A stretch of DNA of 54,169 nucleotides. It comes from Acidimicrobiaceae bacterium (GTDB taxonomy: Bacteria > Actinomycetota > Acidimicrobiia > Acidimicrobiales > Aldehydirespiratoraceae). The DNA is taken from NCBI GenBank assembly GCA_028819505.1, contig JAPPLH010000066.1:31060-85228 (forward strand), read 5' to 3'. Every line of letters starts with the position of its first letter. Position 1 is the stretch's first letter. This document shows, piece after piece, positions 5,035 through 25,642 of this stretch. Made by a program: the position numbers and the translations under genes. The notes under the pieces are model-generated. The model saw nothing but the letters and a program-made list of their open reading frames with translations. It was not told the DNA's origin and did no database searches.

Positions 5035-6450
5035 GTGGCCGGACCGCAGATCGTGGCTGTCGCGTCGGGATCTCCGGCCGAGCGGGCGGGGCTGAGGCCC
5101 GGAGACGAGGTCGCGGCCATCGCCGGGGAGGCGCCCCGCGACGTGATCCGCTGGCAGCTTCTGAGCGACGGGGCCGAGGTCCCCCTCGAAGTGCGGCGCG
5201 GCGGCGGGAGATTCACCGTCGTGGTGGCCAAGCAGGAGGGCGAGCCTCTCGGAGCGGAGGTCGACTCGGCCGTGTTCGACGGGGTGCAGACCTGCGACAA
5301 CCACTGCGAGTTCTGCTTCGTGCACCAGATGCCGCGGGGCATGCGCCGCTCGCTGTACCTCAAGGACGACGACTACCGGCTGTCGTTCCTCTACGGGAAC
5401 TTCACCACCCTCACCCGGTTCACCGAGCTCGACTACGAGCGGGTGGTGACCGAGCGGCTGTCGCCGCTGTACGTGTCGATCCACTCCACCGACCCCGACG
5501 TGCGGGCCGCGATCCTCCAGAACCGCCGCGGCGCGGTGTCGCTGCGCTGGCTGCGGCTCCTGCTCGACGCCGGCATCGAGGTTCACGGCCAGGTGGTGGT
5601 GTGCCCCGGGGTCAACGACGGCGACGTGCTGGCCGACACCCTCGCGGGCGTGCTCGACCGCTTCCCGGAGCTGCGAACGCTGTGCGTGGTGCCCCTAGGG
5701 CTGTCGAGGTTCAACCGCCAGCCGAGGATGCGGCGCCACACCCGGGCCGAGGCGGCCGCCGTCGTCGACCTCGTAGAGGGCTGGCAGGCCGTGTTCCTGC
5801 GGCTGCTCGGTCGCCGCCTGGCTTTCGTGGCCGACGAGTACTACCTCATGTGCGGGCGCAGCTTCCCGGCCGCGGAGCACTACGAGGGCTTCGACATGCA
5901 CGAGGACGGCATCGGCATGGCCCGAGCCTTCGAGATCGAGTTCTCGGAGGTGGGCCACGCGCCCACCCCGCCGCGTCCGGGCTTCTTCGCCTGGGTGGAC
6001 GGCGCGCCGGCCGACGGCTACCGCGCTCCCCGCCAGGGCTCGCCCGCCGAGGTGGTGGCCGGTCCGGGCGGCTCGCCCGTGCAGGTGTCGCTCGGTCCGC
6101 GCCGCGCCGGCCGGACCGCGCCCGTGGCGGTGCTCACCGGCACCCTGGGCGCGGCGGTGGTGTCGCCGCTGGTGGAGTCGCTGGGCCGCAGCGACGCGCG
6201 CGTGGTACCGGTCGAGAACCGCTTCTTCGGCGGCAACATCGGCGTGACCGGGCTGATGGTGGGCGAGGACGCGGCCCGGGCCCTGGCCGGCGAGCCCGAG
6301 GGCCACCGCTACCTGCTGCCCGACGTGTGCCTCAGCCGGGGCCGCTTCCTCGACGGGATGACCACGCAGGAGCTTCCCCGCCCGGTGGAGGTGGTCGCCA
6401 CCCACGGGCGGGCGCTGCGACAGGCGCTGGACCAGAGGCCGAGCGGGTAG
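5035..6450 (+). CDS. PDZ-containing radical SAM protein, DUF512 family
   Basis: A 471-residue member of the DUF512 radical SAM family, whose reaction is not known. Residues 1-60 form a PDZ-like domain (SPAERAGLRPGDEVAAIAG). The radical SAM cluster motif is C87-x3-C91-x2-C94 (TCDNHCEFCF), followed by LYGNFTTLTR and the DUF512 C-terminal half with FFGGNIGVTGLMVG. In Gram-positive genomes this gene is commonly a neighbour of der, as here, which suggests a link to ribosome assembly or translation. The GTG start lies 6 bases after a TAGCCT -10-like hexamer at 5023-5028 with no ribosome binding site between, so the message is probably leaderless. Confidence 0.88.
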   Translation: MAGPQIVAVASGSPAERAGLRPGDEVAAIAGEAPRDVIRWQLLSDGAEVPLEVRRGGGRFTVVVAKQEGEPLGAEVDSAVFDGVQTCDNHCEFCFVHQMPRGMRRSLYLKDDDYRLSFLYGNFTTLTRFTELDYERVVTERLSPLYVSIHSTDPDVRAAILQNRRGAVSLRWLRLLLDAGIEVHGQVVVCPGVNDGDVLADTLAGVLDRFPELRTLCVVPLGLSRFNRQPRMRRHTRAEAAAVVDLVEGWQAVFLRLLGRRLAFVADEYYLMCGRSFPAAEHYEGFDMHEDGIGMARAFEIEFSEVGHAPTPPRPGFFAWVDGAPADGYRAPRQGSPAEVVAGPGGSPVQVSLGPRRAGRTAPVAVLTGTLGAAVVSPLVESLGRSDARVVPVENRFFGGNIGVTGLMVGEDAARALAGEPEGHRYLLPDVCLSRGRFLDGMTTQELPRPVEVVATHGRALRQALDQRPSG

Positions 6451-6572
6451 GGGCCAGTGGGGAGGAGTGCGGCGGGGCGCCCGGCGAGGCCGTGGCCCGA
6501 GCGGCCCGCGAGCGAAGCGAACAGGAGCGGGGAACACGGCGCCGGGGCGCGGGCCGGCGCCGTCCGCCGGAG

Positions 6573-7931
6573 ATGTCCGGCGCCGTCGTGAACCCGGTGG
6601 TGGCCGTGGTCGGCCGGCCCAACGTCGGCAAGTCGACGCTGGTGAACCGCATCCTGGGTCGCCGCGAGGCGATCGTCGAGGAGCGCCCCGGCGTCACACG
6701 GGACCGCAAGGCGGTCGACGCCGAGTGGCAGGGCCGCTGCTTCACGCTGCTCGACACGGGCGGCTGGAGCGCCTCCCGCGACGACCTCGACGCCAAGGTC
6801 AGCGCCCAGGCGGAGCGGGCGGTGCGCGAGGCCGACGCGGTGCTGTTCGTGGTGGACGCGTCGGTGGGGCCGACCGCCGACGACGAGCAGGTCGCCCGGG
6901 TGCTGCACTCCGCCGACGTGCCGGTGATGGTGGTGGCCAACAAGGTCGACCACGCGGCGCAGGCCGATTCGGTGTGGGAACTGCTGGGGCTCGGTCTCGG
7001 CACGCCCCACCAGGTCAGCGCGCTGCACGGCCGCGGCACCGGCGACCTGCTGGAGGAGCTAGTCGCCCGCCTCGACGCGGCCGGTGCCTCGACCGCGCCG
7101 GACGCGCCGCCCGGACCGGCCGCCGACCCGGCCGGCGGGGGCCTGGCGGCCGCTGCGGCCGAGGCGTTCTCGGTGGTGCTGGTGGGCCGGCCCAACGCCG
7201 GGAAGTCGACGCTGTTCAACCGGCTGACAGGCGAGGACCGCGCCGTCGTGCACGACCTGCCGGGCACCACCCGCGACGCCATCGACACTCTCGTCGAGAC
7301 CGACGAGGGACCGGTCCGGTTCATCGACACCGCCGGGATGCGCCGCCGGGCCCGGATCGACTCCGGCACCGAGTACTACTCGCTGGTGAGGGCCCTGCGG
7401 GCGGTCGACACCGCGGACGTGGCCCTGCTGGTGATCGACTCGTCGGTGGGTGTGACCCATCAGGACCAGCGCCTGGCCGAGCGGGTCGACGCCGCGGGCT
7501 GCCCGGTCGTGATCCTGCTCAACAAGTGGGATCTGGCCGACACCGGGACCCGCCTCGACCTGGGCCGCGACGTCCAGGACCGGCTGGGCTTCCTGGGCGA
7601 CCCGCCGGTGCTGCGCATCAGCGCCCTCAGCGGCAAGGGCGTGTCCCGGCTGTGGCCGTCGCTGAGCGCGGCGGTGGCCGGGTACCGCACCCGCATCCCC
7701 ACCAGGAGGGTCAACGACGCGGTGCGGGCCGCCCAGAGCGCCCAGCCCGCGCCGGCGGGGGCCCGCATCCTGTACGCCACGCAGGTGGCCACCGACCCGC
7801 CGACGTTCACGCTGTTCGCCAACCGCGCCCTGCCCCGCACGTACCTGCGCTACATCGAGCGCAGGCTGCGCGAGAGCTTCGACCTGGGCGCCACCGCGCT
7901 GAAGTTCCGGGTCCGCCGCCGCGACGAGTAG
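6573..7931 (+). CDS. der: Ribosome assembly GTPase Der (EngA)
   Basis: Der is the tandem-domain GTPase required for 50S subunit maturation. The 452-residue protein has two complete G domains: P-loop GRPNVGKS at residues 14-21 with DTGG and NKVD motifs, and GRPNAGKS near residue 206 with DTAG and NKWD motifs. These are followed by the KH-like RNA-binding C-terminal domain ending FRVRRRDE. The frame is open far upstream, but the segment before 6573 is an Arg/Gly/Ala-rich readthrough. ATG 6573 puts the first G domain ten residues from the start, as in other Der proteins. It follows the DUF512 gene by about 120 bases. Confidence 0.95.
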   Translation: MSGAVVNPVVAVVGRPNVGKSTLVNRILGRREAIVEERPGVTRDRKAVDAEWQGRCFTLLDTGGWSASRDDLDAKVSAQAERAVREADAVLFVVDASVGPTADDEQVARVLHSADVPVMVVANKVDHAAQADSVWELLGLGLGTPHQVSALHGRGTGDLLEELVARLDAAGASTAPDAPPGPAADPAGGGLAAAAAEAFSVVLVGRPNAGKSTLFNRLTGEDRAVVHDLPGTTRDAIDTLVETDEGPVRFIDTAGMRRRARIDSGTEYYSLVRALRAVDTADVALLVIDSSVGVTHQDQRLAERVDAAGCPVVILLNKWDLADTGTRLDLGRDVQDRLGFLGDPPVLRISALSGKGVSRLWPSLSAAVAGYRTRIPTRRVNDAVRAAQSAQPAPAGARILYATQVATDPPTFTLFANRALPRTYLRYIERRLRESFDLGATALKFRVRRRDE

Positions 7932-8055
7932 CCCGCCGTCCGGGGCCGGTCGGCGGCCCGGGCGGAGTCCTGAGCGGGTTCCGCACCCCTGGCGTCGCTC
8001 CGAGGCGGTACGATGGGAGCGGCAGTGGGCCACGAGACCGAGGGGAGGGGCGCCC

Positions 8056-9135
8056 GTGGTGACGATCGTTCTCGATCTTCTGGCCCTGAGCTGCGCCCTG
8101 GCCACGGTGTTCTACGTCCGCTCGTCCCGCCACCGCCAGCGGTTCGTCCGCCTGATCGAGGGCGACGCCGGCACCCACCCCGAGGCGCTGGCCCTGGCCG
8201 AGGCCGGCTACCGCAAGGACGTCCACGGCGCCGTCGTCTACGGCCTGCTGGTGCCGGTGGCGCTGCTGGTGGGCCGGGCGGGCCTCGACAACATCACCGT
8301 CGTGCTGGGCGTGCTGGGAGTGCCCGCGGTGATGTCGGTGTGGTGGGGGCGCTCCGCGCTCGAAGAGGTCCGCATGGCCCGCAACCGCTACGCGCTGGAG
8401 CGCCGGGCCGAGCAGGCCCTCGAGCAGGAGCAGCTGGCGCCCAAGGCGTGGGCGGCCCGGCTGGCGCCCGAGGAGGTGCCGGACTTCAGCGGGTTCGAGA
8501 TCGGCCGGGTCTACCAGGCGGGCTCGGGGCTGATGGCGGGCGACTTCTTCGACGTGCACCGGGTGGGGCGCCACCGGGTGGCCGCGGTCATCGGAGACGT
8601 GGCCGGCCACGGCATCGAGTCGTCGATCACCGCGTTCCAGGCCAAGTACCTGCTGAGGGTGTTCCTGCGCCAGTTCCGCGACCCGGCCCAGGCCTTCGAG
8701 GAGATCAACGCGCAGCTGTCGGCGGGAGACCGCAACGAGGAGTTCATATCGGCGTGCGTGGTGGTGTTCGACACCGAGGCCGGGACGCTGCGCTACTCGT
8801 CGGCGGGGCACCCGGCCGCGTTCCTGTTCCATGGGGAGGGCACCAGGCCGCTGCGCTCCACCGGCCCCCTGCTGATGCTCGACCCGCGGGCGACGTACTT
8901 CTCGCGGGAGATCCCGATGGCGTCGGGCGATCTGGTGGTGATGTACACCGACGGCCTGGCCGAGGCCCGCGCCGGTCGCCAGATGTTCGGCGAGAACCGG
9001 ATCATCCGCTCGGTGGAGCGCGACCTCAACGCGGCCCCCGACGTGCTGTGCAAGTCGCTGCTGGACGCGGCCAAGGACTTCGCGGGCGGCTCGATCGGCG
9101 ACGACACCGCCATCATGGCCATCCGCCGAGACTGA
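8056..9135 (+). CDS. Membrane PP2C-family (SpoIIE-type) serine/threonine phosphatase
   Basis: The 359-residue product has an N-terminal membrane part (hydrophobic segments at about 4-22, 57-73 and 79-97) and a cytosolic SpoIIE/RsbU-type PP2C domain from about residue 145. Metal-binding signatures are present: AGDFFD (161-166), IGDVAGHGIESS (179-190), YTDGLAEAR and a C-terminal GDDTAIMAI. Proteins of this build usually dephosphorylate anti-anti-sigma factors in partner-switching pathways. No sensor domain such as PAS or GAF and no sigma-factor regulator gene is next to it, so its partner is unknown. It starts with GTG and is followed four bases later by a small zinc-ribbon membrane protein, probably in one operon. 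Confidence 0.9.
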   Translation: MVTIVLDLLALSCALATVFYVRSSRHRQRFVRLIEGDAGTHPEALALAEAGYRKDVHGAVVYGLLVPVALLVGRAGLDNITVVLGVLGVPAVMSVWWGRSALEEVRMARNRYALERRAEQALEQEQLAPKAWAARLAPEEVPDFSGFEIGRVYQAGSGLMAGDFFDVHRVGRHRVAAVIGDVAGHGIESSITAFQAKYLLRVFLRQFRDPAQAFEEINAQLSAGDRNEEFISACVVVFDTEAGTLRYSSAGHPAAFLFHGEGTRPLRSTGPLLMLDPRATYFSREIPMASGDLVVMYTDGLAEARAGRQMFGENRIIRSVERDLNAAPDVLCKSLLDAAKDFAGGSIGDDTAIMAIRRD

Positions 9136-9370: not shown

Positions 9371-9445
9371 CGGGCTGTGGCGCAGCTTGGTTAGCGCGTC
9401 GGTCTGGGGGACCGAAGGTCGGGAGTTCAAATCTCCCCAGCCCGA
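9371..9445 (+). tRNA. tRNA-Pro (anticodon GGG)
   Basis: A 75-base cloverleaf folds by eye: acceptor CGGGCTG with CAGCCCG, D stem GCGC/GCGC, anticodon stem TCGGT/ACCGA with loop CTGGGGG (anticodon GGG, reading CCC and CCU), five-base variable loop AGGTC, T stem GGGAG/CTCCC with loop TTCAAAT, and discriminator A. CCA is not encoded. The composition and gene content change directly after its 3' end, and an integrase gene lies 9 kb away, so the tRNA is a likely integration site. Confidence 0.95.
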
Positions 9446-9455
9446 CAAAAAAAAA

Positions 9456-9824: not shown

Positions 9825-10133
9825 ATGGACCAGTTGTTCAACCCAGACTCACCACCAATGGCGAAGGAGTGGGAGCGGCGCACCGTCTTCGACCGAGCAG
9901 CATCGGTCATCGAACGTCTTGAACAGGGCTACCGCAAAGGAGGGGCGAAGGCGTGGACCGATGTCTACGCGGCACTGCGGGCCAATGCTGACCACTACCG
10001 GAATCTTGGGATGACGCAATTCGCGGAACAACTTGATCTGTTGGCGGCTAGGGCCCGCGCAGTTGTTGCCAGGCACCAATTCCATGGACCGCCCCTACCG
10101 CAGACGCTGCATCGCTTATCAGAGGCGTTGTAG
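9825..10133 (+). CDS. Small helical protein of unknown function, upstream of the helicase
   Basis: A 102-residue product preceded by an AGGAGA ribosome binding site. It is predicted largely helical (FDRAASVIERLEQGYRKGG, FAEQLDLLAARARAVVARHQ), with no membrane segment and no recognised family. It lies 98 bases before the large helicase gene in the same direction and downstream of the 9739-9766 dyad, so it may be the first gene of that unit and a regulator or small subunit of the putative defence module. Confidence rests on the ribosome binding site and coherent composition. Confidence 0.5.
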   Translation: MDQLFNPDSPPMAKEWERRTVFDRAASVIERLEQGYRKGGAKAWTDVYAALRANADHYRNLGMTQFAEQLDLLAARARAVVARHQFHGPPLPQTLHRLSEAL

Positions 10134-10231
10134 TGAAGCACGCGAACGACAGGGGGTGCCGCGTCTCCCAAGAATTGTGCTCAGCGTGCGAGGCGAATCG
10201 GCGAAGCCGGATGTCTGGAGTGTCCTGAGAG

Positions 10232-13200
10232 ATGAGCCTGTTCGAGTCGGGAAGGACTTCGTTTCGGATCGCAGCTGATGGCTGGCGAGCTCCGCAGCGT
10301 GGAGCACTCGGTGCGCTTCTAGCTCATTGGACATTGACGCCCGCTGAACCTGCTCTCATCTCCCTACCAACGGGCACCGGCAAGACTGGCGTAGCCCTCG
10401 CAGCGCCCTTCGTGACACCGGAGCCCCCGAAGCGTGTCCTAGTGCTGGTCCCGTCGAGGGCGCTGCGAGAACAGACCGTTCCTCAGTTCGCGGACTTGGA
10501 TCTTCTGCGGAGCATTGGCGCCCTTCCCCACAGGCGTCGTCGTCCGAGGCTTCGAGTTCATAAGGTCACCGGGACCTCGACCGACTGGGACGCAGCGGCT
10601 GCTGCGGATGTCGTTGTTGCCATCCCGCAGTCAGTTAGTCCAGCCTCCGCTGCCGACGTGTCTGTCCCTCCGAGCGGGATGTTCGATCTTGTGATCGTGG
10701 ACGAGGCTCATCACGTTCCCTCGCTGACTTGGAGCGCGATTCTTGAGCATCTCGACTCTCGCTCTGCGTTGCTTCTGACAGCCACCCCGTTCAGGCTCGA
10801 CAATAAACGTCTGCCAGGAACGAACATCTTCCACTTCCCGCTTCGGCAGGCAATCGATCAGAGCTTCTACAGGCCCGTACGGCCACTTGTCCTTCCGCGG
10901 CCCGAGCCCCTTACGCACGAGACGAAGGACCGAATGATCCTCGATGAGGTCGTGCGGATCGCGGCGCGGCCTGAACATCGATCAAGTGCTCTGATGGTCC
11001 GCGCCTCTTCCATCCAGCGGGCACGTGAGCTTGCTGATCTGTATCGAGAGGCAGGTATCAACATCGAGCCGCTGACCCAGAAGACATCTTACTCCGACTA
11101 CGAGTCGATTACAGGGAGGCTCAAGGACGGATCTCTGCAGGCGGTCAGCGTCGTGGGGATGCTCGGTGAGGGATACGACCTACCACGTCTCCGCCTGGTT
11201 GCATACCACGACAAGCACAAGTCGTTGCCTGCGACCGTTCAACTGGTCGGTCGCCTCGCCCGGGTTAGTGAGGAATACCCCCAAGAGTCCGTCCTAGTGA
11301 CCGTTGACGATGGAGATGTGTATCCGGAACTTCAGTCGGTCGTGCGCGACCTCTATAAGGAGGATGCAGACTGGGCAACGATCCTGCCGGGGATCGTCGA
11401 CGCTGAGATTGAGGCGGACAAGGCGGTTCGTGACTTCGCTGATGCGCTTGAACTCAGGCAGGGGCGCATCGATCCCATGCATCTTCAGCCGATGCCAACG
11501 CCCACGGTCTTCGAGGTAGCTGAACCGCTCTGGAAGCCCGTCGCCGAAGGTACCTCGTTACCGGCCGAGCTTGATGTAGGGCGCTCTCTCGGCGGCGCTG
11601 AGATACTCACGGCACTCGTCGCCGACCACGGCAGACTCATTGTGCTGGTAACTCGCCGTCGCTCAACGCCAAGGTGGTGCATCGACCCATCGGTCGAGTC
11701 GATCGAGTACGGCCTGACCGTGATTTCGTATCGAGCGGCTCCTCGAATCGGTCTGCCAGCGCTTCTCTTCGTCGACGCGGAGGACAAACGCATCGGGGAC
11801 GCAGTCGTCAAGATTCTTAACGCCCCGGATAACGCCTCCGTTGTCGATCCTGAGCGACTCGACGGCTATCTCCAGAGTCTCCCGCGGATATCGGTGTCGT
11901 CGATTGGAATGCGGAACATCCTTGCAGGCACGAGAGGTACGGCCTACAAGACCAGAGCGGGCAGCAGCACTGATATCGATCTCGGCTCAATCGAGACAAC
12001 TCAAACGGCCCTAGGGCACGTGATGATGCAGATCCGCGTGAGTCAGGGTTCGACGACCGTTGGGGCCGCCTTGGAGAAGGGCAAGATTTGGCAGCGTCGA
12101 TACAAGACTCTGGTCGATTACGCCGCGTGGGTGACCGAGGCTGCGGAACTGCTCTGGTTCCCCCGAAGCGGCGACGGCTCGCCGCTCCTGCCTCAAGTCC
12201 CGCGGGGGAGAGCGATTAGCGAATGGCCGCTATCGATCCCCATCGCAGTCGAGATGAACCAAGCGGTCGCTGTTGGGGGCTTACAGTTGGTGACACCGTT
12301 GAACACGCTCATCGGTTCTGTGGAGGACCTTGAACTTCACGCTGGCGTCGATCCCACAGGCGGGTTGACCCTGCCGAATACCACCGCTCGGGAACTCCCC
12401 ATTGTCGCACTGATGACAGATCGAAGCCTCGGCACTCAGACCGTGTGTTGGACGGGAGTGCTGATCTGTGGCGGGGGAGCCGAGGAGCGTGGGACAGGAA
12501 TCCGCGTCAAGCACGGATACAGCGAAGATTTTGCTTTCACGGAGTTCCTGGACCGCTACCCACCGATGGTCTATTTTGCTTCGGGCGAAGCGGTCCAGGG
12601 CCGCGAGATTTTCGATGTGAACGGAGGGAATGCGGGCCGCTTCGATCATCGAGACATCGAGACGATCAATTGGAAGGCTCGGGGCGTAGACATCGAGTCG
12701 GAGACCCGCGAGACCGCCGCGCGCAAGGGGCTCGGTGTCTCAATTCACGAGGGCGTCGAGGAGTACCTGCGACAGCAACCTCGTCGCGCTGAGCACCGCT
12801 GGATCCTGTACAACGATGGCTCTGGAGAGATCGCCGATCACATTGTCATCGAGCACACGCCAGGCGGAGTAGTGCACCTGTCGCTCTGGCACTCTAAAGC
12901 AGCTGGTGGCGCTCCGTCTCTGAGGGTGAATGACCTTCAGGTTGTCGTCGGCCAAGCTCTCCGCAGTCGGTCTCGCTACCACGACCCGCAACTCTGGGCG
13001 AGTCTCCGCCGTCGCCTGACCGGCCAAGAGTCCCCCGCCGCGACCCTGGTCGACGGGAGCGATGGTCTCGCGCGGCTGTTGGTCTACCTCGGCGCACAAC
13101 GTTCGGGGATGAAGCGTCGAGGGCTTAGCTGGGAGCGCAGGCCAGCCTTGATGCACGGAGAGATCGGTATCGTGCAACCAGGTCTGTCGTCCTCTGCCCT

Positions 13201-13315
13201 AGCACACCCAACGTCCGCTCAGAGGAGCACGGCGGAGTCCATACATCAGTTGCTCGCGGTGTTCGCCGACACAGTTGCGACGACGGGTAGCCGTGCCCTT
13301 GTGCTTGCAAGCTGA
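10232..13315 (+). CDS. Large superfamily 2 DEAH helicase with nuclease-like C-terminus
   Basis: A 1,027-residue protein. The N-terminal 380 residues are an SF2 helicase: Walker A PTGTGKT (46-52), VDEAH (156-160), TATP (183-186), motif V GMLGEGYDLPRL (309-320) and motif VI QLVGRLAR (337-344). The middle 450 residues match nothing I recognise. Near residues 855-900 the segment NDGSGEIADHIVIEH, followed by LSLWHSK, resembles a PD-(D/E)xK nuclease core in which the last motif is HxK. This suggests a DNA translocase that may cut DNA. It converges on the sacsin-like ATPase gene with only 14 bases between stop codons. Base composition is visibly lower in GC than core genes. The most likely role is phage defence, but the family is not identified. 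Confidence 0.8.
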   Translation: MSLFESGRTSFRIAADGWRAPQRGALGALLAHWTLTPAEPALISLPTGTGKTGVALAAPFVTPEPPKRVLVLVPSRALREQTVPQFADLDLLRSIGALPHRRRRPRLRVHKVTGTSTDWDAAAAADVVVAIPQSVSPASAADVSVPPSGMFDLVIVDEAHHVPSLTWSAILEHLDSRSALLLTATPFRLDNKRLPGTNIFHFPLRQAIDQSFYRPVRPLVLPRPEPLTHETKDRMILDEVVRIAARPEHRSSALMVRASSIQRARELADLYREAGINIEPLTQKTSYSDYESITGRLKDGSLQAVSVVGMLGEGYDLPRLRLVAYHDKHKSLPATVQLVGRLARVSEEYPQESVLVTVDDGDVYPELQSVVRDLYKEDADWATILPGIVDAEIEADKAVRDFADALELRQGRIDPMHLQPMPTPTVFEVAEPLWKPVAEGTSLPAELDVGRSLGGAEILTALVADHGRLIVLVTRRRSTPRWCIDPSVESIEYGLTVISYRAAPRIGLPALLFVDAEDKRIGDAVVKILNAPDNASVVDPERLDGYLQSLPRISVSSIGMRNILAGTRGTAYKTRAGSSTDIDLGSIETTQTALGHVMMQIRVSQGSTTVGAALEKGKIWQRRYKTLVDYAAWVTEAAELLWFPRSGDGSPLLPQVPRGRAISEWPLSIPIAVEMNQAVAVGGLQLVTPLNTLIGSVEDLELHAGVDPTGGLTLPNTTARELPIVALMTDRSLGTQTVCWTGVLICGGGAEERGTGIRVKHGYSEDFAFTEFLDRYPPMVYFASGEAVQGREIFDVNGGNAGRFDHRDIETINWKARGVDIESETRETAARKGLGVSIHEGVEEYLRQQPRRAEHRWILYNDGSGEIADHIVIEHTPGGVVHLSLWHSKAAGGAPSLRVNDLQVVVGQALRSRSRYHDPQLWASLRRRLTGQESPAATLVDGSDGLARLLVYLGAQRSGMKRRGLSWERRPALMHGEIGIVQPGLSSSALAHPTSAQRSTAESIHQLLAVFADTVATTGSRALVLAS

Positions 13316-13329
13316 GCCCAGCGCGTGGT

Positions 13330-16300
13330 CTACTCGTCGTCGATCAACTGCTGCTCGTCATCGGTCGAAGCGAACCTATAGACGCGGGTCGTAGCGTCGC
13401 GCAGTCCCGAGAGGGTGATTGCACCTCGGTCGGTCGGCCGCAACTGCTCCAGGGGATCGATCACAACGCGGATGGTGGGCTGGGCTTCATCGCTCTCCTC
13501 AACGTTGGATACGACTACGAGAAAGAAGTCAGGCGTGGTGAGTGCTCGCTGTACTTCGGAGTCCGTTAGTGTCACTCGGTCCGGTTCGGCACCAGCGAAG
13601 ACCTTTAGTTCGTAGTACTTCTTCAGCTGATCGATGGCATCGGCACCGACCCCACGCTGGGTGCGCAGGTCGACGAGTTCGTCCTGGTCCGTGCCCAACA
13701 GCACTTGCAGAAGCTCGAATCCTATGTTTTCCTTGTCCAGGTCGGAGTAGCCGCGCAAGGCAGACCTATTCTGCGGTCTGCGGGAGCTGCCCTTAGGTTC
13801 CTTGAGAACGCGGTCGGAAGTTGCGCTCTCACCGGTGCGGTTCTCGATATCGGAGGATCCATGGTCAGTGCGTCCCTTCGGGTCGACAAGCATGAGTGCT
13901 TGAGGGTCCACGAGTACTCGGAGAGCGGTCCCGGGTGAAGACTGCCCTCGCTTTTCGTGCTTGTCTGCTCCAGAGCCGGATTGAGGAGCCTTGTTTGTCC
14001 TCTCTCCGGCGGGACCTTGAGGCGAGTGGTGCTTCTTCGCGACGTTCTCTCCCCACTCCGCAAGTCGAGCATCAAGTTCCGCCCTTTCCCGCGCAGCGAG
14101 TTCGCTGGCGAGCGCAACGCGTCGCGCCTTGATCCCTTCCTCGGCTTGATCGCACGCGGCTCGCCATGCTTGTGCGACGAGCCGCGCTTCGCCCTCGAAG
14201 AGCGCTGCTAACGCTCTGCCTCCCCCATCCACGCGAGAGAGCGCCGCTGGTTCTCTGACGAAGACCGTGGCACAGGTGGTATCGACCTTGGCGGTCACCT
14301 CGCAGTCGTATTCTCGTCCTGCAGCGCTAATCTCGAGCGAAAGAGACGGGAGTACTTTGACGGCGTACAGCGCCAGCCTGTCCCATGGCACGGTGAGGCC
14401 CTGGCCGAGTGCTGGGTCGTGGCGTTGTAGGTCGTCGTGCAGCAGTTCAAGCGACTCGCGAAAAAGCTCCGTTAAGTCCTGTTTTTCTTCCGCAAGTTCA
14501 GGATCGATCACTCGGGCTTCGTCGGCTCGGATTCTCGTGACGCGCAACGGTACGAGCAGCGAACGGAACTGTTCAATCCCGCCGCCCGGTCGCCAAATGG
14601 GAAGGCGATCACCGAGCCCGGCGGCGAGGACCGGGTCGTCGGTCGCGTAAACAGGGCGGGCACGCGTCCACCCTGCGCTCGTCCACAGAGCCAATCTTGT
14701 CAGCTTCCGGCGCTCGATTGTGTTCTGTTTCGCGAGGTGCGTGGCGAGTGTGCGCAGCGTCTCAAGCAGAATCGCCTCCTCGGCACGATCAGGTGCGTCT
14801 CGGCGACGGTATGCGATCTTCGCGAGGACCTCCAGGCAGTCGCTCGCGGAGGGTCGCCGCAGACGCAGCGCGAGCCACAGCGGCCCGCAATCCGAAATTG
14901 CGGGGGCGAACGCGCGATAATGTCCAAAGATCGGTGGCCCTGCGAGCACATTCTGGGGAGACAACCAGCCGAGATTCGTTAGTACGAGACGATGACGCGT
15001 GAATTCAGCTCTCAGTTGACTTGCGTTCAGGTCAGCGTCGCTGTCCGCATCGTTGAGGCCTCGTGCGATCGCCCGGTAGATGAGCGCAGCGTCGCGTCGC
15101 AGGTCCTCAGAAGAGATCTCGTCCTCGTCTGAGGCACTGCGAAGTTCCCGAAGCCGTGCTACGAGTTCGGATCGACTGGGATCACTTGAGACTCCAAGCG
15201 CCGTCAAGACCACGCGACGAATTGGCTGATCGAGGTCAGCATGCAGGTAGTCCCGGGAGTTGGGGCCATAGATTGCCTCGGTACCCGGCGTTCGAACGCG
15301 TAACTCAGCTGGCTTGCGTGGGGTGCCGCTCTCATCATCGAGCCAAGCAACATCTCCCGCCTGCGCAAGCCAGAAGGCAGGAACCCTCCCTTTACGTTTC
15401 CAACCGAAACTGTCATCTGCGGAATCGACTTCGGCGAATTCACTTAGGCGGCGGTCCCACGCTCGACCGAGTGCCGCCAATACGGCTCCTGCCCTCGTGC
15501 GTCGCAGCCTGACCCGGCGTTCCCGCGAGATGTCCGTGATTACTGCAATGAGATCGGGGCTCTCGATGTCCTCGAGTGTGTAGGTGGCGCCCCGCTCGCT
15601 CATGGCCGAAGCGCGAGCTTCTGGCCCATTCTCAACCTGCCGGGGCAGGCCACGCTCAGTCTTGCTTGGGTACCGTCGTCTCAGCTGTTCGTGCGGTTGC
15701 AGTCGAGGTGTTGTTTCGGCTCCCAACAATCGAAGGAAACGGAGAGCGCCGAGTCCCTCTCGTCCTGCTTGCGACCGGAGGGCCTTTGCGTAATGGTCGC
15801 TCAGCCATTCAAGTGCTGTCGTCTCGCCAGCTGCAACGGCGAAACTGTCCGGCTCCTTGTCAATCGCCCGTGGCAGGTATGCGTCGATAGGCCGAGTAGA
15901 GCCCGTGTCTACTTCACGATTCCGCCGTGATCGTGTGCGGGTCCTGTCACGTACATCTGCGGGCCGGGCAGTGCCAGTTCTGCCCCGACGCCGTGAGCCG
16001 TACCGGTACGACCTAAGCAGGACTGCACGGCCGACGTCGGGTCCAAGAGCCGCCCTGTCAACCGGGGCAATGTGCTCGAAGGCATCCCGGAGTGCTCGCA
16101 GCTGTTCATCTGTGAGGCTTGAGTCAATGCAGTGGCCCGAACGCCCCGCCTGGGCGATCCGGCGCACCACTTCATCGCTGTCGGAACTGTCGAGTAGAGC
16201 TCCGCATTCCCGTAGCCAAACGAGAACATCAGGAGCACCGTTCGTACCGGCCAAGTGAGCCGGGTGAAGCAACGTCGCAATGCCTAGCTGCTCAGCGAGA

Positions 16301-17982
16301 GGAGTTGTCTCCGCTGAGACCGATGTCATGGAGTCGCCGGCTGGAGGAAGGATCCGACGTCCGTCGCGCGCGATTACACACGGGAGGTGGAGCAGCCTGT
16401 CGTCTAGACCCTCCTGGAGTGCCGCAGCAACCAGGGCAATCGTCGACTCGACTGGCCGTGTTACATCTTCGAGAAGATCAAGCGCCTGTTCGGCACGTAC
16501 AGGCTCGGGAAGGCCAGCTCCGTGGCTCCGCCAGTCCTCGAGCACTGAACGCCATCTTCCGGCTTGATCCCTAACGCCGAAGGGGAGCGTCGCTCTAAGG
16601 CCGGCAAGCTTGGCGATCTCACCTTCTTGGAGGACTCCCTCAAGCCGCGATGTCTCCACAGCCAGCCGCGACAGGGCTACGAGTCCCTGTTCGGGCACGG
16701 GGAACGACAACCGGGCTGCAACTGCGTGTCTCGCCTTGTCGACAACGGCGGCCTCAAGGGCTCCGACGACAGGCGATGGACCCTTCTCTTCCTCAGCAGG
16801 CGGCAGTGGTATTGCCTGCCAGGTTGCTTGAGGATCGCGTTTGAAGCAGTCGAACACCGCCTGCGACCACACTTCCGCAACGAGGTCCACGAGAGCGGCG
16901 TTCCACGAGGTGTCGGCGAAGTCTGCCCGACTGGTGAGCGGGTCAAACTGGGCGTTTACGAAGAGTGGAGCACTTGTCGGAATCACGGGTAGACCCGCGT
17001 AGGTCTGACCGACCTCTGCGCGACGAAGCGGGATCGCTACCGAGACTGGAGTCGTGCGCTCTGTCGCCTTTCTTGCACGCTCAACCCCGGCTGGAGTGAA
17101 CATATCGGCGCGGTAGACGGCCCACGAGCGTCCGTCGTTCGCAATGGCGAACTCCCTCGACACCTCGGCTGGCCCTGAGCCTGGCTGCACGCTTTCGTCT
17201 TGGTGCCGTGAGATCTTGAGCTGGCGAATCGATTGGCTGTCGGGATTCCGTAGGGTCACACGCTCCACATGCCGGAGGAATAGCAACGCTGAGTCATCCC
17301 AGTCGTCGAGCCACGCCTCCAGATCCGCAGAACTCAGGGCCCCAGACTGCAAAGGAATCCGCAGCGTGGTCCATCCCGGCTCACGAAACCAGGTCGGCAG
17401 AGTGGGTGGTTCCACTGGGGCAATCGTCGGATCGCCGATTCGGACGTGATACGGGGCGCAGTGAACCTCAAGTGTCGTTGACAACGACTGCAGGGCAGAG
17501 AGTCCGACGCCGAAACGCCCGATGGTGCTTGCATCGCCCGCCTTAGTGCTCAACCACGGCGTTGCGAAGCCGAGTACGTGGGGAAGGCGTACCGGAGTGC
17601 CATCGTGGCTTACTAGCAACTCGGTCGGTCGGAGCAGGAAGCATACCTGCGAGGCCTTCACATCGTCGGCGTTCTGGACAATCTCGGCGAGACCCTGAAG
17701 TCGATCGCTTGAGAGCAGACTTCCACTGCTTCTAGCCCCATCGAGTGCCTCTACGATCGAGCCTGGGAGTTCCTCAAACAACTCGCCCAGGCGCTGGACT
17801 GCTGCTTGGGCTTCGTTGATATTCGTCGGCTCAAAGGCGGGACCCGAAGGGGCACGCCTTGGATCGAAGACTTGCTCAGCAGCCTCGACGGCATCCGCGA
17901 TACGCGCTTCAGTCACTTCACACGTAGAACTGGACTGGAATTGGACAATCCCTCGCAGCGAGGCAAGCGCGATCTGCGGCAC
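13330..17982 (-). CDS. Sacsin-like GHKL ATPase with DUF3883/nuclease-like C-terminal domain
   Basis: A 1,550-residue protein. Residues 90-230 carry a sacsin-type GHKL (Hsp90-like) ATPase: N-box EIVQNADD (E100, N104), the VSHDGTP aspartate (D127), and the lid TIGRFGVGLSAL (153-164). A long unassigned middle follows. After a charged linker comes a C-terminal domain (about 1430-1520) with GVGADAID, YYELKVFAG, VTLTDSEVQRAL and FFLVVVSNV. This pattern is typical of DUF3883/NO VEIN-type domains, which have a PD-(D/E)xK-like core. The gene starts 66 bases after the integrase stop and follows repressor and integrase on the same strand, so it may share their transcript. Large sacsin-like ATPases with helicases are recurrent in defence islands. 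Whether this exact pair is described is unknown to me. Confidence 0.82.
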   Translation of the reverse strand: MPQIALASLRGIVQFQSSSTCEVTEARIADAVEAAEQVFDPRRAPSGPAFEPTNINEAQAAVQRLGELFEELPGSIVEALDGARSSGSLLSSDRLQGLAEIVQNADDVKASQVCFLLRPTELLVSHDGTPVRLPHVLGFATPWLSTKAGDASTIGRFGVGLSALQSLSTTLEVHCAPYHVRIGDPTIAPVEPPTLPTWFREPGWTTLRIPLQSGALSSADLEAWLDDWDDSALLFLRHVERVTLRNPDSQSIRQLKISRHQDESVQPGSGPAEVSREFAIANDGRSWAVYRADMFTPAGVERARKATERTTPVSVAIPLRRAEVGQTYAGLPVIPTSAPLFVNAQFDPLTSRADFADTSWNAALVDLVAEVWSQAVFDCFKRDPQATWQAIPLPPAEEEKGPSPVVGALEAAVVDKARHAVAARLSFPVPEQGLVALSRLAVETSRLEGVLQEGEIAKLAGLRATLPFGVRDQAGRWRSVLEDWRSHGAGLPEPVRAEQALDLLEDVTRPVESTIALVAAALQEGLDDRLLHLPCVIARDGRRILPPAGDSMTSVSAETTPLAEQLGIATLLHPAHLAGTNGAPDVLVWLRECGALLDSSDSDEVVRRIAQAGRSGHCIDSSLTDEQLRALRDAFEHIAPVDRAALGPDVGRAVLLRSYRYGSRRRGRTGTARPADVRDRTRTRSRRNREVDTGSTRPIDAYLPRAIDKEPDSFAVAAGETTALEWLSDHYAKALRSQAGREGLGALRFLRLLGAETTPRLQPHEQLRRRYPSKTERGLPRQVENGPEARASAMSERGATYTLEDIESPDLIAVITDISRERRVRLRRTRAGAVLAALGRAWDRRLSEFAEVDSADDSFGWKRKGRVPAFWLAQAGDVAWLDDESGTPRKPAELRVRTPGTEAIYGPNSRDYLHADLDQPIRRVVLTALGVSSDPSRSELVARLRELRSASDEDEISSEDLRRDAALIYRAIARGLNDADSDADLNASQLRAEFTRHRLVLTNLGWLSPQNVLAGPPIFGHYRAFAPAISDCGPLWLALRLRRPSASDCLEVLAKIAYRRRDAPDRAEEAILLETLRTLATHLAKQNTIERRKLTRLALWTSAGWTRARPVYATDDPVLAAGLGDRLPIWRPGGGIEQFRSLLVPLRVTRIRADEARVIDPELAEEKQDLTELFRESLELLHDDLQRHDPALGQGLTVPWDRLALYAVKVLPSLSLEISAAGREYDCEVTAKVDTTCATVFVREPAALSRVDGGGRALAALFEGEARLVAQAWRAACDQAEEGIKARRVALASELAARERAELDARLAEWGENVAKKHHSPQGPAGERTNKAPQSGSGADKHEKRGQSSPGTALRVLVDPQALMLVDPKGRTDHGSSDIENRTGESATSDRVLKEPKGSSRRPQNRSALRGYSDLDKENIGFELLQVLLGTDQDELVDLRTQRGVGADAIDQLKKYYELKVFAGAEPDRVTLTDSEVQRALTTPDFFLVVVSNVEESDEAQPTIRVVIDPLEQLRPTDRGAITLSGLRDATTRVYRFASTDDEQQLIDDE

Positions 17983-18048: not shown

Positions 18049-19203
18049 TCATGGGGTGTCGCCGAAGATGGCGGTTCCGAAGGTGGCGGCGGCTTGGGCT
18101 TGCATGTCGGGTAGGACGTGTTGGTAGACGTCCATGGTGAAGGAGACGCTGGCGTGGCCGAGGCGTTCGCTGACGACTTTGGGGTTGACGCCCTGTTGCA
18201 GCAGGATCGTGGCGTGGGTGTGGCGCAGGTCGTGTAGGCGGATGCTGGGCAGGTCGATCTTGGCGAGGAGGCGTTCGAAGGTCTGGCTGATGAGGTCGGG
18301 GTGGATGGGCGATCCGTCGGGTTTGGCGAAAACGTAGCCGCCTTTGTGGCGGCGGCCGGTGCCCATGCGGTCTTCGAGCTGGTGGCGCCGGTGCAGCCGC
18401 AGCTGTGCGACGGTGTGGGGGTCGAGGTCGATGGTGCGGCGGCTGGTGGGGGTCTTGAGGTCGCTCTCGATGAGCTTGTACTCCACCGACAGCAGCTGCT
18501 GGCTGACGGTGAGCCGCGCGGTGTCGAGGTCGACGTTGCGCCATACCAGCCCGGCGATCTCTGCTCTGCGCATGCCGGTAGTCGCGGCCAGCAGAAACAG
18601 CGGATACAGGTAGTGGTCACAGATGGCGTCGAGGAAGGCGCGCAGCTCGTCGCTGGTCCACACGCTCATGGTCGGGCTGTTGCGGCTGGTGGTGGGCGTA
18701 TCGGCGAGGTCGGCGACATTGCGCACCACGGTGCCCTTGCGTTCGGCATCGGAGAGCGCGCCCTGGATGGTGATGTGGACGTTGCGTACGGTCTGGGCCG
18801 ACAGACCGCCTCCTGAGCCGTTGCGCTTGCCCTCGGTGAGCAGCCGGGCATAGAGCGTGTCGAGGTCTTCGGGCCGCAGCTTCTGTACGGGGATGTGTCC
18901 GATGTTGGGGTTGATGTGCAGGCGGATGATGCGCTCGTATGACTCGGCGGTGGACGGCTTGAGCCGGGCCCGCTTCGCCGGCAGCCACCGCTTGAGCATG
19001 TAATCGCCAAGGGTGATCTTGTCGGGGGAGCGGTAGTCGCCGTCGTGGACGCGCTTGATCAGATCTGCGAGGACCCTCTCGGCGTCCTTGCGGTTGTCGC
19101 CGGCGGCGTGCCAGCGCCGCTTGTCCTTGCCGGTGGCGGGGTCGACGCCCTCGTAGATGACGGCGTAGTAGCGGTTGCCCTTCTTGGCGATGTGGCCGCG
19201 CAT
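18049..19203 (-). CDS. int: Tyrosine recombinase / phage-type integrase
   Basis: The 384-residue protein has an N-terminal arm-binding region, a SAM-like core-binding domain (about 60-165: ITLGDYMLKRWLPAKRARLK) and a full catalytic domain. Active-site residues are all present: R212 (TTGMRRAEI), K250 region, H324 and R327 (LHDLRHTH), H350 (ERLGHASVS) and nucleophile Y360 (MDVYQHV). It should be an active enzyme for integration and excision of the element, plausibly at tRNA-Pro 9 kb away. The ATG lies 11 bases after the XRE gene stop with a GGGACGG ribosome binding site, so both are co-transcribed. Its GC content is core-like, unlike the neighbouring sacsin-like gene. Confidence 0.93.
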   Translation of the reverse strand: MRGHIAKKGNRYYAVIYEGVDPATGKDKRRWHAAGDNRKDAERVLADLIKRVHDGDYRSPDKITLGDYMLKRWLPAKRARLKPSTAESYERIIRLHINPNIGHIPVQKLRPEDLDTLYARLLTEGKRNGSGGGLSAQTVRNVHITIQGALSDAERKGTVVRNVADLADTPTTSRNSPTMSVWTSDELRAFLDAICDHYLYPLFLLAATTGMRRAEIAGLVWRNVDLDTARLTVSQQLLSVEYKLIESDLKTPTSRRTIDLDPHTVAQLRLHRRHQLEDRMGTGRRHKGGYVFAKPDGSPIHPDLISQTFERLLAKIDLPSIRLHDLRHTHATILLQQGVNPKVVSERLGHASVSFTMDVYQHVLPDMQAQAAATFGTAIFGDTP

Positions 19204-21181: not shown

Positions 21182-21841
21182 CTAGATGGCGGAGAGTCCG
21201 CCTGGGTCATTTCGCTCGCGCTCCAGTTCTTGGAGTTCCCGGGCTGCCGATCTTGCGAAGGCGACCAGTTCGTCGTAGGCCGCGTCGTCTAGATCGAAGG
21301 TGTGGCGACGGAGTTCATCGATGTAGTCCAGCGCGTCGGCCAGCAGGGAGGGCTTGAACCCGTCGTCCTTGGAGGCGGCCAGGTCGCACAGTTCAGTGAG
21401 GCTGAATCTCTGGGCCAGCGCTCGGAAGTCGATGTAATCGCGGGGCTCGGCTCGGCTGAAGAGGGCGAGGGTCTTGTTCGCGGCGAGTTCCTGGTCCGCA
21501 AGGATCAAGCCATCGGCGGTCTTGAGCGCGGGCATCATCTGGTAGTCGGTGGCCAGATCCACATGAGTGGAGTCGCTGTCGGACTCGATCAGCAAACGCG
21601 CGTAGGTGTCTGAGACCCTTAGCCGGGTCACCCGCAGCCCCGCTTGCTGCATTGCGGTCTCGAACGTGTCGAGCATCGGGGCCACTGGCTGCGGGTGGGC
21701 AGCGAAGAAGTCGAGATCGTCAGTCCCACGGTGCACCACACCGGTGACGATCAGCGCGCTGCCGCCTGCGAGCGCTACAGCAGCACCCTCGGGCAAACTC
21801 GCCACAATGCTGCGCACGCGGCGCTGCAGGTCGGTGAGCAC
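21182..21841 (-). CDS. Nucleotidyltransferase, AbiEii/DUF6036-type (toxin-like)
   Basis: A 219-residue protein with a minimal nucleotidyltransferase core: ALAGGSALIVTGVVHRGTDD (about residues 24-43) followed by LDFF, giving the GGS and DxD signatures, and later TDYQMMPALKTADG, LAANKTLALFSR and RDYIDFRAL. These are the features of AbiEii-like toxins and related DUF6036 proteins, which transfer nucleotides to tRNA or other targets. It begins 7 bases after a small gene that probably encodes its antitoxin. A second, different nucleotidyltransferase module lies at 30,041-31,449. Confidence 0.78.
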   Translation of the reverse strand: MLTDLQRRVRSIVASLPEGAAVALAGGSALIVTGVVHRGTDDLDFFAAHPQPVAPMLDTFETAMQQAGLRVTRLRVSDTYARLLIESDSDSTHVDLATDYQMMPALKTADGLILADQELAANKTLALFSRAEPRDYIDFRALAQRFSLTELCDLAASKDDGFKPSLLADALDYIDELRRHTFDLDDAAYDELVAFARSAARELQELERERNDPGGLSAI

Positions 21842-23786: not shown

Positions 23787-25235
23787 TCAAGGCCGTGTTG
23801 AGTGTTGTCTCCAGCCGAATTCGGACGGATTGTGCACTAGGCCCGACAAGAACTGCCAGGTTGGAGGCGTGAACGAGACTCCAGAGTTCTTCGCCTGCCA
23901 TGCAAGCAGCTCCGAAGTGACCCCGAATCTCGATCGGAGCGACCGAGCGGCACGCTCTTCGTTGCCTTCGTGGTCCAAGAACGCCTGACCAGCCATCTGC
24001 CGTGGCAAGAGCAACTCAGCTGCGAAGGCGCGAGCCCGCTGCTCAATGTGTTCGGCTGTCCTGCCGCCGAGAACTTCCACGAGCGGCAGAGCGCTCCTGC
24101 GATCAACCAGCAGGTGACAGATCTCGTGTGCCAGCGTCGCTCGCCTTCGGCCTGAGCTCGAGGCGTACCGTGCATCCAAGTTGACTAGCACCGCGGGACC
24201 GTGCCGCGGGCCCCAGCAGCCGATTGCGTCAATGTCCCCAAGCCCGAGATTGACATCAATGATTGGCACGCCCCAGGACTCAATGATCCTGTCGGGGTTC
24301 GCGCCCCCACCGCGGCGAACAGTCTCCGGCTTCGACCGCAGCCACTTCGCCAACTCGTGTCCCTGCGCGTACGGCCGTTCGTCATATAGGTCGGCGATTA
24401 CCGCCAGCGCTTCGTCAGAGACGCGATCCAGCGCCGAACTGTCGGACAGTTGGACTTCCCGGACCGCATCGAGAATGGGCCCCAGCGTGGTAGACGGTTG
24501 AGGACCGACGAGTCTGGCAGCAGCCAGAAGCTCATCGGATCGAGGCGCGCTCCAGTCGCGCTCGTCTTCGGCGTAGAAGGCAGACTCGATCTCAGCCACG
24601 AGTTCCGGCGGGTAACCGGTGGCTGCTTCGATCACTTTGAGTCGGTCGTGGGCTTCGCGTGTTAGCCACGACTCGACCGCCGTGCGCGACCGTTCGTCAG
24701 CTAGTCCGTCGAGCCGTGACGCAATGGCGTCTCCGACTTCGCTCAAGACACCCAGCAGCTCGTCAAACGGCGCTCTTGCCGTCGACGCCGTTGAGGCCGC
24801 CCAGCCGGAGTTGCCAGCTTTCACTATCCAAAGCGGCGGCATCACCGCTCCCTGCACGGCCTCCGCTAGGTCATGGGTCGTGCGATAAGCCTCAAGCTGT
24901 TGGTGCTCTATGTCGGAGCCCGGGGAGGGTCCTGAATCGATCGTCGCCTCGGCGGCTGCAAGCATCCGGGGGGCTGTGTCCAGAGCGACGCCGAGAGGAG
25001 CCCCGTCCTCGATCGCGAGGTACAGCCAGGACTCCGCGAGGAACTCGAGGAGTTCGACCCACGTCCATTCGAATCCAGCGTCCTCGTCCAAGCCGTGCCA
25101 GACGGCTCTACCCCGCAGGCTGACCCGTAGGCGCGCCCTAGTCGCTTCGGCCGCGATTGCCGTTGAGCGCCCAGGCTGCCAGGTCAGCGCGAACTCGATA
25201 TCGCCGTCGCCCGACCGGGCTACCAGTTCATCCAT
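23787..25235 (-). CDS. ImmA/IrrE-family metallopeptidase
   Basis: The 482-residue product begins at ATG 25235 behind a GGGAGG ribosome binding site. The C-terminal third is an ImmA/IrrE (COG2856) zinc peptidase: RRATLAHEICHLLVD with HExxH near residue 368, followed by EQRARAFAAELLLPRQM and a helix ending FGVTSELLAWQAKNSG. The N-terminal 300 residues are helical and unassigned. ImmA-type peptidases cleave repressors or antitoxins to switch on mobile elements or stress responses. The start overlaps the end of the preceding 140-residue gene by 16 bases, so the two form one unit, divergent from the DUF1156 methylase. Confidence 0.82.
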   Translation of the reverse strand: MDELVARSGDGDIEFALTWQPGRSTAIAAEATRARLRVSLRGRAVWHGLDEDAGFEWTWVELLEFLAESWLYLAIEDGAPLGVALDTAPRMLAAAEATIDSGPSPGSDIEHQQLEAYRTTHDLAEAVQGAVMPPLWIVKAGNSGWAASTASTARAPFDELLGVLSEVGDAIASRLDGLADERSRTAVESWLTREAHDRLKVIEAATGYPPELVAEIESAFYAEDERDWSAPRSDELLAAARLVGPQPSTTLGPILDAVREVQLSDSSALDRVSDEALAVIADLYDERPYAQGHELAKWLRSKPETVRRGGGANPDRIIESWGVPIIDVNLGLGDIDAIGCWGPRHGPAVLVNLDARYASSSGRRRATLAHEICHLLVDRRSALPLVEVLGGRTAEHIEQRARAFAAELLLPRQMAGQAFLDHEGNEERAARSLRSRFGVTSELLAWQAKNSGVSFTPPTWQFLSGLVHNPSEFGWRQHSTRP

Positions 25236-25642
25236 TGCCGCACCTCCCTCTCGCATCCTTGCCGTGCGGCGCGCTCCAACAGTTGTCGCTTGACGTTCCT
25301 CGCGTTGCCAGCGCGCGGGAACGTCTGCGGGTGTTCTGGAAACCCATGGTACGAGGTCCCCGGGTTCGTGGGTGCAGCTCGGTAGACCACGCCGTCGCTG
25401 ACTGCGTACAGCCGCTTGGGGTAGGGCCGGTCCCAGCGGGGAGGGGAGTAGGGGATCGCTTCTTCGAGGAGCGCCTGCGCGCTGGAGGCATCCATCGTCG
25501 AAGGGCACTTGCCCACCCGGATCCGCCCGACCGTGACGAACCCGGCGTGCTGCCTGTCCCAGTGGTGCTTGCGCTTCGGGTTCTCGTCCGGCTCGTACCG
25601 CCAAGTCATTCTCGGTCTGTTCGTCGCGTCGGCACCGGCCAT
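25220..25642 (-). CDS. Unknown protein coupled to the ImmA/IrrE peptidase
   Basis: A 140-residue basic, aromatic-rich protein (TWRYEPDENPKRKHHWDRQH, HAGFVTVGRIRVGKCP, TNPGTSYHGFPEHPQTFPR). ATG 25642 is supported by a TAGGCT -10-like hexamer (25650-25655) seven bases upstream, so the transcript is probably leaderless. The stop lies 16 bases inside the peptidase gene, implying translational coupling. No family is recognised. It may be the peptidase's substrate, an antitoxin-like partner, or a toxin kept in check by the peptidase; the sequence does not decide. Confidence 0.6.
   Translation of the reverse strand: MAGADATNRPRMTWRYEPDENPKRKHHWDRQHAGFVTVGRIRVGKCPSTMDASSAQALLEEAIPYSPPRWDRPYPKRLYAVSDGVVYRAAPTNPGTSYHGFPEHPQTFPRAGNARNVKRQLLERAARQGCEREVRQWMNW

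Follow-up and report, generated by a model that had tools for sequence, protein, structure and literature searches.

The window analysed here is a 54,169-nucleotide stretch of contig JAPPLH010000066.1 from an Acidimicrobiaceae bacterium (assembly GCA_028819505.1). Behind a tRNA-Pro(ggg) gene it carries a small open reading frame (ORF), a superfamily 2 (SF2) helicase gene and a large GHKL ATPase gene. The two large genes are probably two independent single-gene anti-phage systems that happen to be neighbours in a defence island at tRNA-Pro. An original prediction, made from the sequence, had joined them into a single anti-phage module; this proposal is not upheld, since no examined locus outside one genus has members of both families next to each other. 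The ATPase is a member of the TmtA family and forms the known half of the pair, and the helicase family is the half worth following. The genes and domains concerned are:

9825-10133, + strand: ORF of 102 residues, seen in the window genome and G010 alone
10232-13315, + strand: SF2 (ResIII/RadD/HsdR-like) helicase with a C-terminal nuclease-like domain, 1,027 residues
10283-11320, + strand: helicase core, residues 18-363 (Pfam ResIII 18-188, Helicase_C 249-345; PADLOC Cas3 model up to residue 363)
12593-13312, + strand: helicase C-terminal domain, residues 788-1027 (family alignment, predicted model)
13330-17982, - strand: TmtA-family GHKL (sacsin-like) ATPase with a NOV_C/DUF3883-like C-terminus, 1,550 residues (PADLOC PDLC03968)
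17461-17691, - strand: GHKL ATP-binding motifs EIVQNADD and GRFGVGL, residues 98-174 (NCBIfam NF047352; invariant columns in alignment A2)
13333-13782, - strand: NOV_C/DUF3883-like domain, residues 1401-1550 of the ATPase (alignments; Pfam NOV_C in relatives)

The ATPase and the TmtA family

The original prediction could assign no named system, but a check against PADLOC places the ATPase in the TmtA family, which we equate with the single-gene Tiamat system (Millman et al. 2022). A high-confidence match of this sort was among the outcomes that the prediction had listed as speaking against its module. Model PDLC03968 matches at 1484 bits over residues 25-1542 of 1550 and profile positions 7-1485 of 1486. 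Besides this full-length match, the protein shares with TmtA its GHKL N-terminus, and no conserved partner gene was seen: no gene family besides TmtA is common to more than four TmtA loci, and a conserved third partner was rejected on this ground. It differs in that six further TmtA models match it more weakly and only partially, mainly in the N-terminal region, so that it represents one branch of a loose TmtA family.

The sacsin-like character of the GHKL region, also part of the prediction, is confirmed by the NCBIfam sacsin ATP-binding domain NF047352 (66.2 bits, cut-off 50). The GHKL motif columns are invariant in all five rows of alignment A2, and the ATPase profile recovers sacsin among PDB entries (5v47, 4.6e-5). 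Excerpts of the literature describe the Tiamat mode of action as unknown or poorly understood. A literature search on the name TmtA returned only other meanings among the matches listed, and none of 125 pattern matches for TmtA on viral contigs was confirmed.

Distribution of the two families

A pattern scan for TmtA yielded 49 loci. Ten of these (L095-L104) are partial, mostly covering the sacsin-like N-terminus, and were excluded; among the 39 left, one (L056) belongs to the congener G010 and is counted apart, giving 38 loci outside the genus. At least 5 kb is present on both flanks at 28 of the 39, and some flanks are short. A hidden Markov model (HMM) of the helicase family detects a neighbour at none of the 38. 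By this model, true family members occur only at L056 and in other G010 stretches; weaker matches in L094, L102 and L104 are to other helicases, that in L094 covering the core only. Nor does a family member lie near the three full-length plasmid TmtA genes (L053-L055). At the level of whole genomes, the helicase C-terminal profile matches two of the 38 TmtA genomes outside the genus, G467 and G482, with no TmtA in the 19 kb around the helicase in G467 or on the entire 9.9-kb helicase contig in G482. TmtA was likewise found at none of the 27 helicase-family loci (20 + 7), some of which have short flanks.

In 395 genomes of the class, ATPase profile A2 matches 13, at full length only in the window genome and G010 and at no more than 88 bits in the other 11. 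The PADLOC TmtA model matches 30; the same two genomes alone score near 1485 bits, and the next reaches 210. The helicase profile hits four: the window genome, G010, G398 and G031, whose copy is interrupted by a stop. Weak TmtA-like matches in G031 and G398 fall on contigs other than that of the helicase. The congener G005 carries a broken TmtA relative (internal stop, two frames, 54-58% identity) and no close helicase; two ORFs adjoining this relative look AbiE-like by eye. The helicase-TmtA pair is thus found solely in the window genome and G010, and homologues that never co-occur, which the original prediction had named as evidence against its module, are nearly what is observed. Together with G005, the counts of zero at 38 TmtA loci and at 27 helicase loci indicate that the linkage, as far as seen, is private to one island lineage.

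Type I methyltransferases (the top model matches 5 of 108 neighbouring ORFs) and a CBASS cyclase are among the genes beside TmtA at other loci. The 108 ORFs were taken from 137: 21 were set aside because their contexts were truncated, of the same genus or near-duplicates, and eight overlapping or doubtful ones were removed by eye.

The C-terminal domain of the ATPase

The C-terminus of the ATPase carries a G-x-D...ExK...T-x-x-E pattern, in agreement with the DUF3883-like domain proposed for it. Residues D1448, E1458, K1460 and E1476 are invariant in all 30 rows of an alignment that combines the window protein with sequences from 29 TmtA loci out of 39 (omitting those that are broken or partial), and likewise in 11 of 11 rows of a second alignment. 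Pfam NOV_C (PF13020), presumably the renamed DUF3883, matches 4 of the 30 family members, at best 1.3e-5. The likeness to this family lies in the pattern and in the Pfam matches of relatives; the window ATPase itself has no NOV_C match up to E=1. An excerpt of PMC3710099 terms DUF3883 a novel restriction endonuclease (REase) domain. The plant protein NO VEIN, judged by the Pfam name, likewise has a GHKL and NOV_C architecture.

An AlphaFold model of residues 351-1550 has a mean predicted local distance difference test score (pLDDT) of 78.6 and a predicted template modelling score (pTM) of 0.45. Foldseek returns no match below E 0.001 for this model. The highest fold-match probabilities among the best 50 listed belong to restriction enzymes, namely the Eco15I N-terminal domain (8q5o, 0.99), DpnI (4kyw, 0.95), NaeI (1ev7, 0.72) and PvuII (1pvu, 0.57), with E-values of 0.018-0.73 and with the aligned part of the ATPase model not indicated. 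These matches favour a PD-(D/E)xK-type C-terminus as support, not proof. A common origin of the ATPase and helicase C-terminal domains was considered and rejected, the profile comparison giving a probability of 0.3 on a scale of 100.

The helicase family

Pfam recognises only the SF2 core of the helicase (ResIII 6e-21, Helicase_C 8e-7). Scans of PADLOC-DB 2.0.0, NCBIfam 20 and Pfam give local matches to PbeA (41.9 bits), RadD (45.9, cut-off 720) and the EcoAI R subunit (41.3, cut-off 550), with no full-length or above-cut-off match to HamB, Cas3, RadD, HsdR or PbeA in PADLOC or NCBIfam. For 13 members of the family, E-values get no better than 4.4e-16 in PADLOC and 8.1e-15 in NCBIfam (coverage known for the window protein only), which is too weak for the family to have its own model. 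The window helicase shares an SF2 core with type I and III restriction R subunits and with RadD/XPB helicases, but its scores lie far under the cut-offs and it has a C-terminal domain of its own. Pfam shows no C-terminal family common to 12 members. The PADLOC candidate PDC-S71 matches the C-terminal GExAD..HxK region in 8 of 17 members (best 3e-6), although this match is local, spanning 58 residues in the window helicase. Sparse literature searching found no specific name for the family.

The PD-(D/E)xK-like C-terminus of the original prediction holds in part. A conserved nuclease-like domain is present, in which E824, G865, E866, A868, D869, H887, K889 and Q908 (window numbering) are invariant in all 17 aligned C-termini. 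Its motif, however, is GExAD...HxK and not (D/E)xK: the aspartate of the PD-(D/E)xK catalytic set is present as D869, whereas a histidine replaces the acidic residue before xK in 17 of 17. The structure prediction called for at the outset gave a half-model of residues 396-1027 of low confidence (mean pLDDT 59.5), for which Foldseek finds no significant fold match (best E 0.16). In this weak model the domain shows an alpha-beta-beta-beta-alpha order, the element order of PD-(D/E)xK enzymes, in which the aspartate opens one strand and HxK closes the following one.

Relatives of the helicase are broadly scattered. Plasmid matches occur in 89 records, 26 of them with at least 80% coverage, and identity is 24-27% among 30 matches listed; the hosts of the first six plasmid regions viewed are alpha-, beta- and gammaproteobacteria, Bacteroidota, actinobacteria and haloarchaea. 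Defence-type genes are annotated in 5 of 13 plasmid regions (L048, L049, L242-L244), comprising Abi, type I M, AbiE with SIR2, TIR and AbiEi genes. In E. coli, 15 genomes have a match to the helicase, and in 14 of 5,426 the match spans 80% or more of the query. Three E. coli chromosomes were viewed (L206, L207, L208). At L207 and L208 the family gene begins six bases past hsdS in an hsdR-hsdM-hsdS operon, beside an integrase and tRNA-Leu, the L208 copy being broken into two frames; at L206, located at tRNA-Phe, restriction-modification pseudogenes lie upstream of the family gene. A 421-residue hypothetical gene follows the restriction, modification and specificity (R-M-S) operon and the helicase-family gene at L207 (7702-18700) and L208 (7699-18699). 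Given the defence genes near helicase loci and near TmtA loci, both families occur among defence genes, separately.

It is possible, if somewhat less likely than not, that the helicase family is an undescribed, very widespread and solitary restriction-like defence family that is also able to join type I R-M-S operons as a fourth gene.

Gene layout and the tRNA-Pro island

The prediction had read the locus as a small gene, a 1,027-residue helicase and a 1,550-residue GHKL ATPase, downstream of a tRNA and next to an integrase, and the frames listed bear this out. The helicase and ATPase genes are convergent and form no operon, with a 14-base gap between their stop codons (13316-13329). The 1,550-residue length of the ATPase follows from a mechanical GTG start, and an in-frame GTG at residue 23 is a possible alternative. 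The GC fraction is 0.612 in the helicase, 0.618 in the ATPase and 0.599 in the 102-residue ORF, compared with 0.662 in the integrase and 0.739 in the upstream core (5035-9135), so the noted AT-richness relative to both holds as well. Relative to G010, the ratio of nonsynonymous to synonymous substitution rates (dN/dS) is 0.16 for the 102-residue ORF (just 3 nucleotide differences), 0.18 for the helicase and 0.31 for the ATPase. Purifying selection therefore acts on the reading frames, with weak evidence in the case of the 102-residue ORF. This small ORF starts 378 bases after the end of the tRNA and is present in just two genomes, that of the window and G010, out of 51 from the family. It has no match at E<1 outside these two (G000 and G010) in a search of 422 sequences and no library family above cut-off, and its membership of any system is unproven.

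The remaining features of the island are:

9371-9446, + strand: tRNA-Pro(ggg), likely island insertion site
18049-19203, - strand: tyrosine integrase ORF of the island (Pfam Phage_integrase 8e-24)
21182-21841: AbiEii-like gene
23787-25604: M78 (ImmA/IrrE-like) peptidase gene, 605 residues
25758-28532: HmaB (DUF1156 adenine methylase), full-length, 1100 bits
34074-36661: XhoI-like restriction-modification block (REase and methylase); also L045 15048-17663 and L249 6711-9323

The content downstream of tRNA-Pro(ggg) differs among the congeners compared, and 43-base repeats of the tRNA end are retained in G007 and G009; taken together, these make the tRNA look like an integration hotspot of the genus. 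Between the window and G010, 9.0 kb after the tRNA-Pro, reaching past the TmtA gene, is common at 95%. The common block stops within the integrase gene (window 18453), where only the final ~405 bases are matched, and G010 then runs directly into the XhoI-like block (81% to its window counterpart). In the window, those blocks are separated by what remains of the integrase, by a regulator, the AbiEii-like gene and the M78 peptidase gene, and by HmaB with a second AbiEii-like ORF. No second att copy marking the far island end was found within the window at up to 3 mismatches. With HmaB, the XhoI-like REase and methylase and the AbiEii-like genes alongside, the view that the two large genes encode plausible anti-phage proteins in a defence island is sustained.

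Several further observations concern this cargo. Relatives of the island's AbiEii-like gene lie near TmtA at L075 and L079, and the window genome has three near full-length HmaB-like genes (C133, C138, C17). The XhoI-like block shares 91% DNA identity between the Acidimicrobiaceae genome G010 and the Chloroflexota metagenome-assembled genome G482, a sequence similarity that points to transfer from one phylum to another. In G482, the region ~4 kb upstream of the block holds a helicase-family gene.

Discussion

The domains of the two proteins suggest how each might work alone. GHKL ATPases such as MutL, Hsp90 and MORC proteins close by ATP binding. In the TmtA-family protein, the N-terminal GHKL ATPase would sense an invader-linked trigger and close on ATP binding, and the closed ATPase may then bring the C-terminal NOV_C/DUF3883 nuclease, of the PD-(D/E)xK kind, onto DNA. 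The helicase would be a solitary restriction-like enzyme, whose SF2 motor loads onto and runs along invading DNA and whose C-terminal GExAD/HxK nuclease-like domain may cut it. We infer this ATP-driven clamp with a nuclease, and this translocating nuclease, from the domains, and with them that both proteins would act on DNA, cut it, respond to triggers and protect from phage.

Two linked schemes have to be weighed against two independent systems. The TmtA-like ATPase might sense and the helicase-nuclease execute within one two-gene module, as excerpts of PMC2292703 propose for the MORC/paraMORC GHKL ATPases and SF2 helicases of restriction systems. According to these excerpts, an SF2 helicase occurs in ~70% of MORC neighbourhoods, including helicases fused to restriction-fold nucleases, and some paraMORC3 proteins have a C-terminal restriction-fold nuclease, so that a GHKL ATPase by an SF2 helicase-nuclease resembles the window pair, whose genes are adjacent and convergent in both genomes that carry them. 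The MORC linkage recurs across lineages in that account, whereas that of the window pair was not found outside one genus; a helicase is a neighbour at 0 of 38 TmtA loci and present anywhere in 2 of 38 genomes, TmtA is at 0 of 27 helicase loci, and convergent genes are not co-transcribed. A general module is therefore unlikely. A narrower version, in which two solo systems acquired a functional link in this genus alone, perhaps through common regulation or the 102-residue protein, would fit the 9.0-kb block kept in G010 with different content beyond it, and a small gene found only alongside both large genes. Since just two genomes are involved, shared island descent explains the same facts, and no library family matches the small gene above its cut-off; we consider such a local merger a little less plausible still.

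A role outside defence is very unlikely. The ATPase would then be related to sacsin and act like a chaperone, and the helicase would be a RadD/XPB-like repair enzyme, both kept by mobile elements for their own upkeep. The sacsin match in the PDB, the repair and restriction motors (RadD, XPB, EcoAI R) that are the closest named helicase relatives, the occurrence of helicase relatives on conjugative plasmids and the 8 of 13 plasmid regions viewed that name no defence-type neighbour are in line with this. It is opposed by the TmtA match of the ATPase, by the restriction-operon position of the helicase-family gene in E. coli, by defence genes both on the island of the window and beside TmtA at other loci, and by the patchy distribution in E. 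coli.

Several points weigh against the reading as two independent defence systems, including those same eight plasmid regions. In the window genome and G010 the pair is adjacent and tightly convergent, with 97% and 93% identity, as a young module would be. The pattern scan misses divergent relatives, most searched genomes are drafts, and only part of the helicase loci were viewed with full flanks. The TmtA relative of G482 is a fragment ending a 3.2-kb contig and may still lie near the helicase of that genome. The phage-tested Tiamat protein may have a different C-terminus, given that the remaining TmtA models cover no more than portions of the ATPase. Fold evidence for both putative nucleases is below significance, and the TmtA fold list is silent on the aligned region. 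For the helicase C-terminus, a PDB profile search gives nothing up to E=10, and histidine in place of D/E in HxK could signal altered or lost activity.

With two independent single-gene systems as the favoured reading, a supposed two-gene system gives way to two testable statements. The conserved NOV_C/DUF3883-like D-ExK site in this TmtA branch offers a mechanism for Tiamat. The helicase family, which occurs in E. coli as well as on plasmids from Bacteroidota, proteobacteria, actinobacteria and haloarchaea, has no strong specific library match beyond its core. Should it prove to be a defence family, it would combine an SF2 motor with an E/GExAD/HxK/Q C-terminal nuclease that has a histidine at the acidic position.

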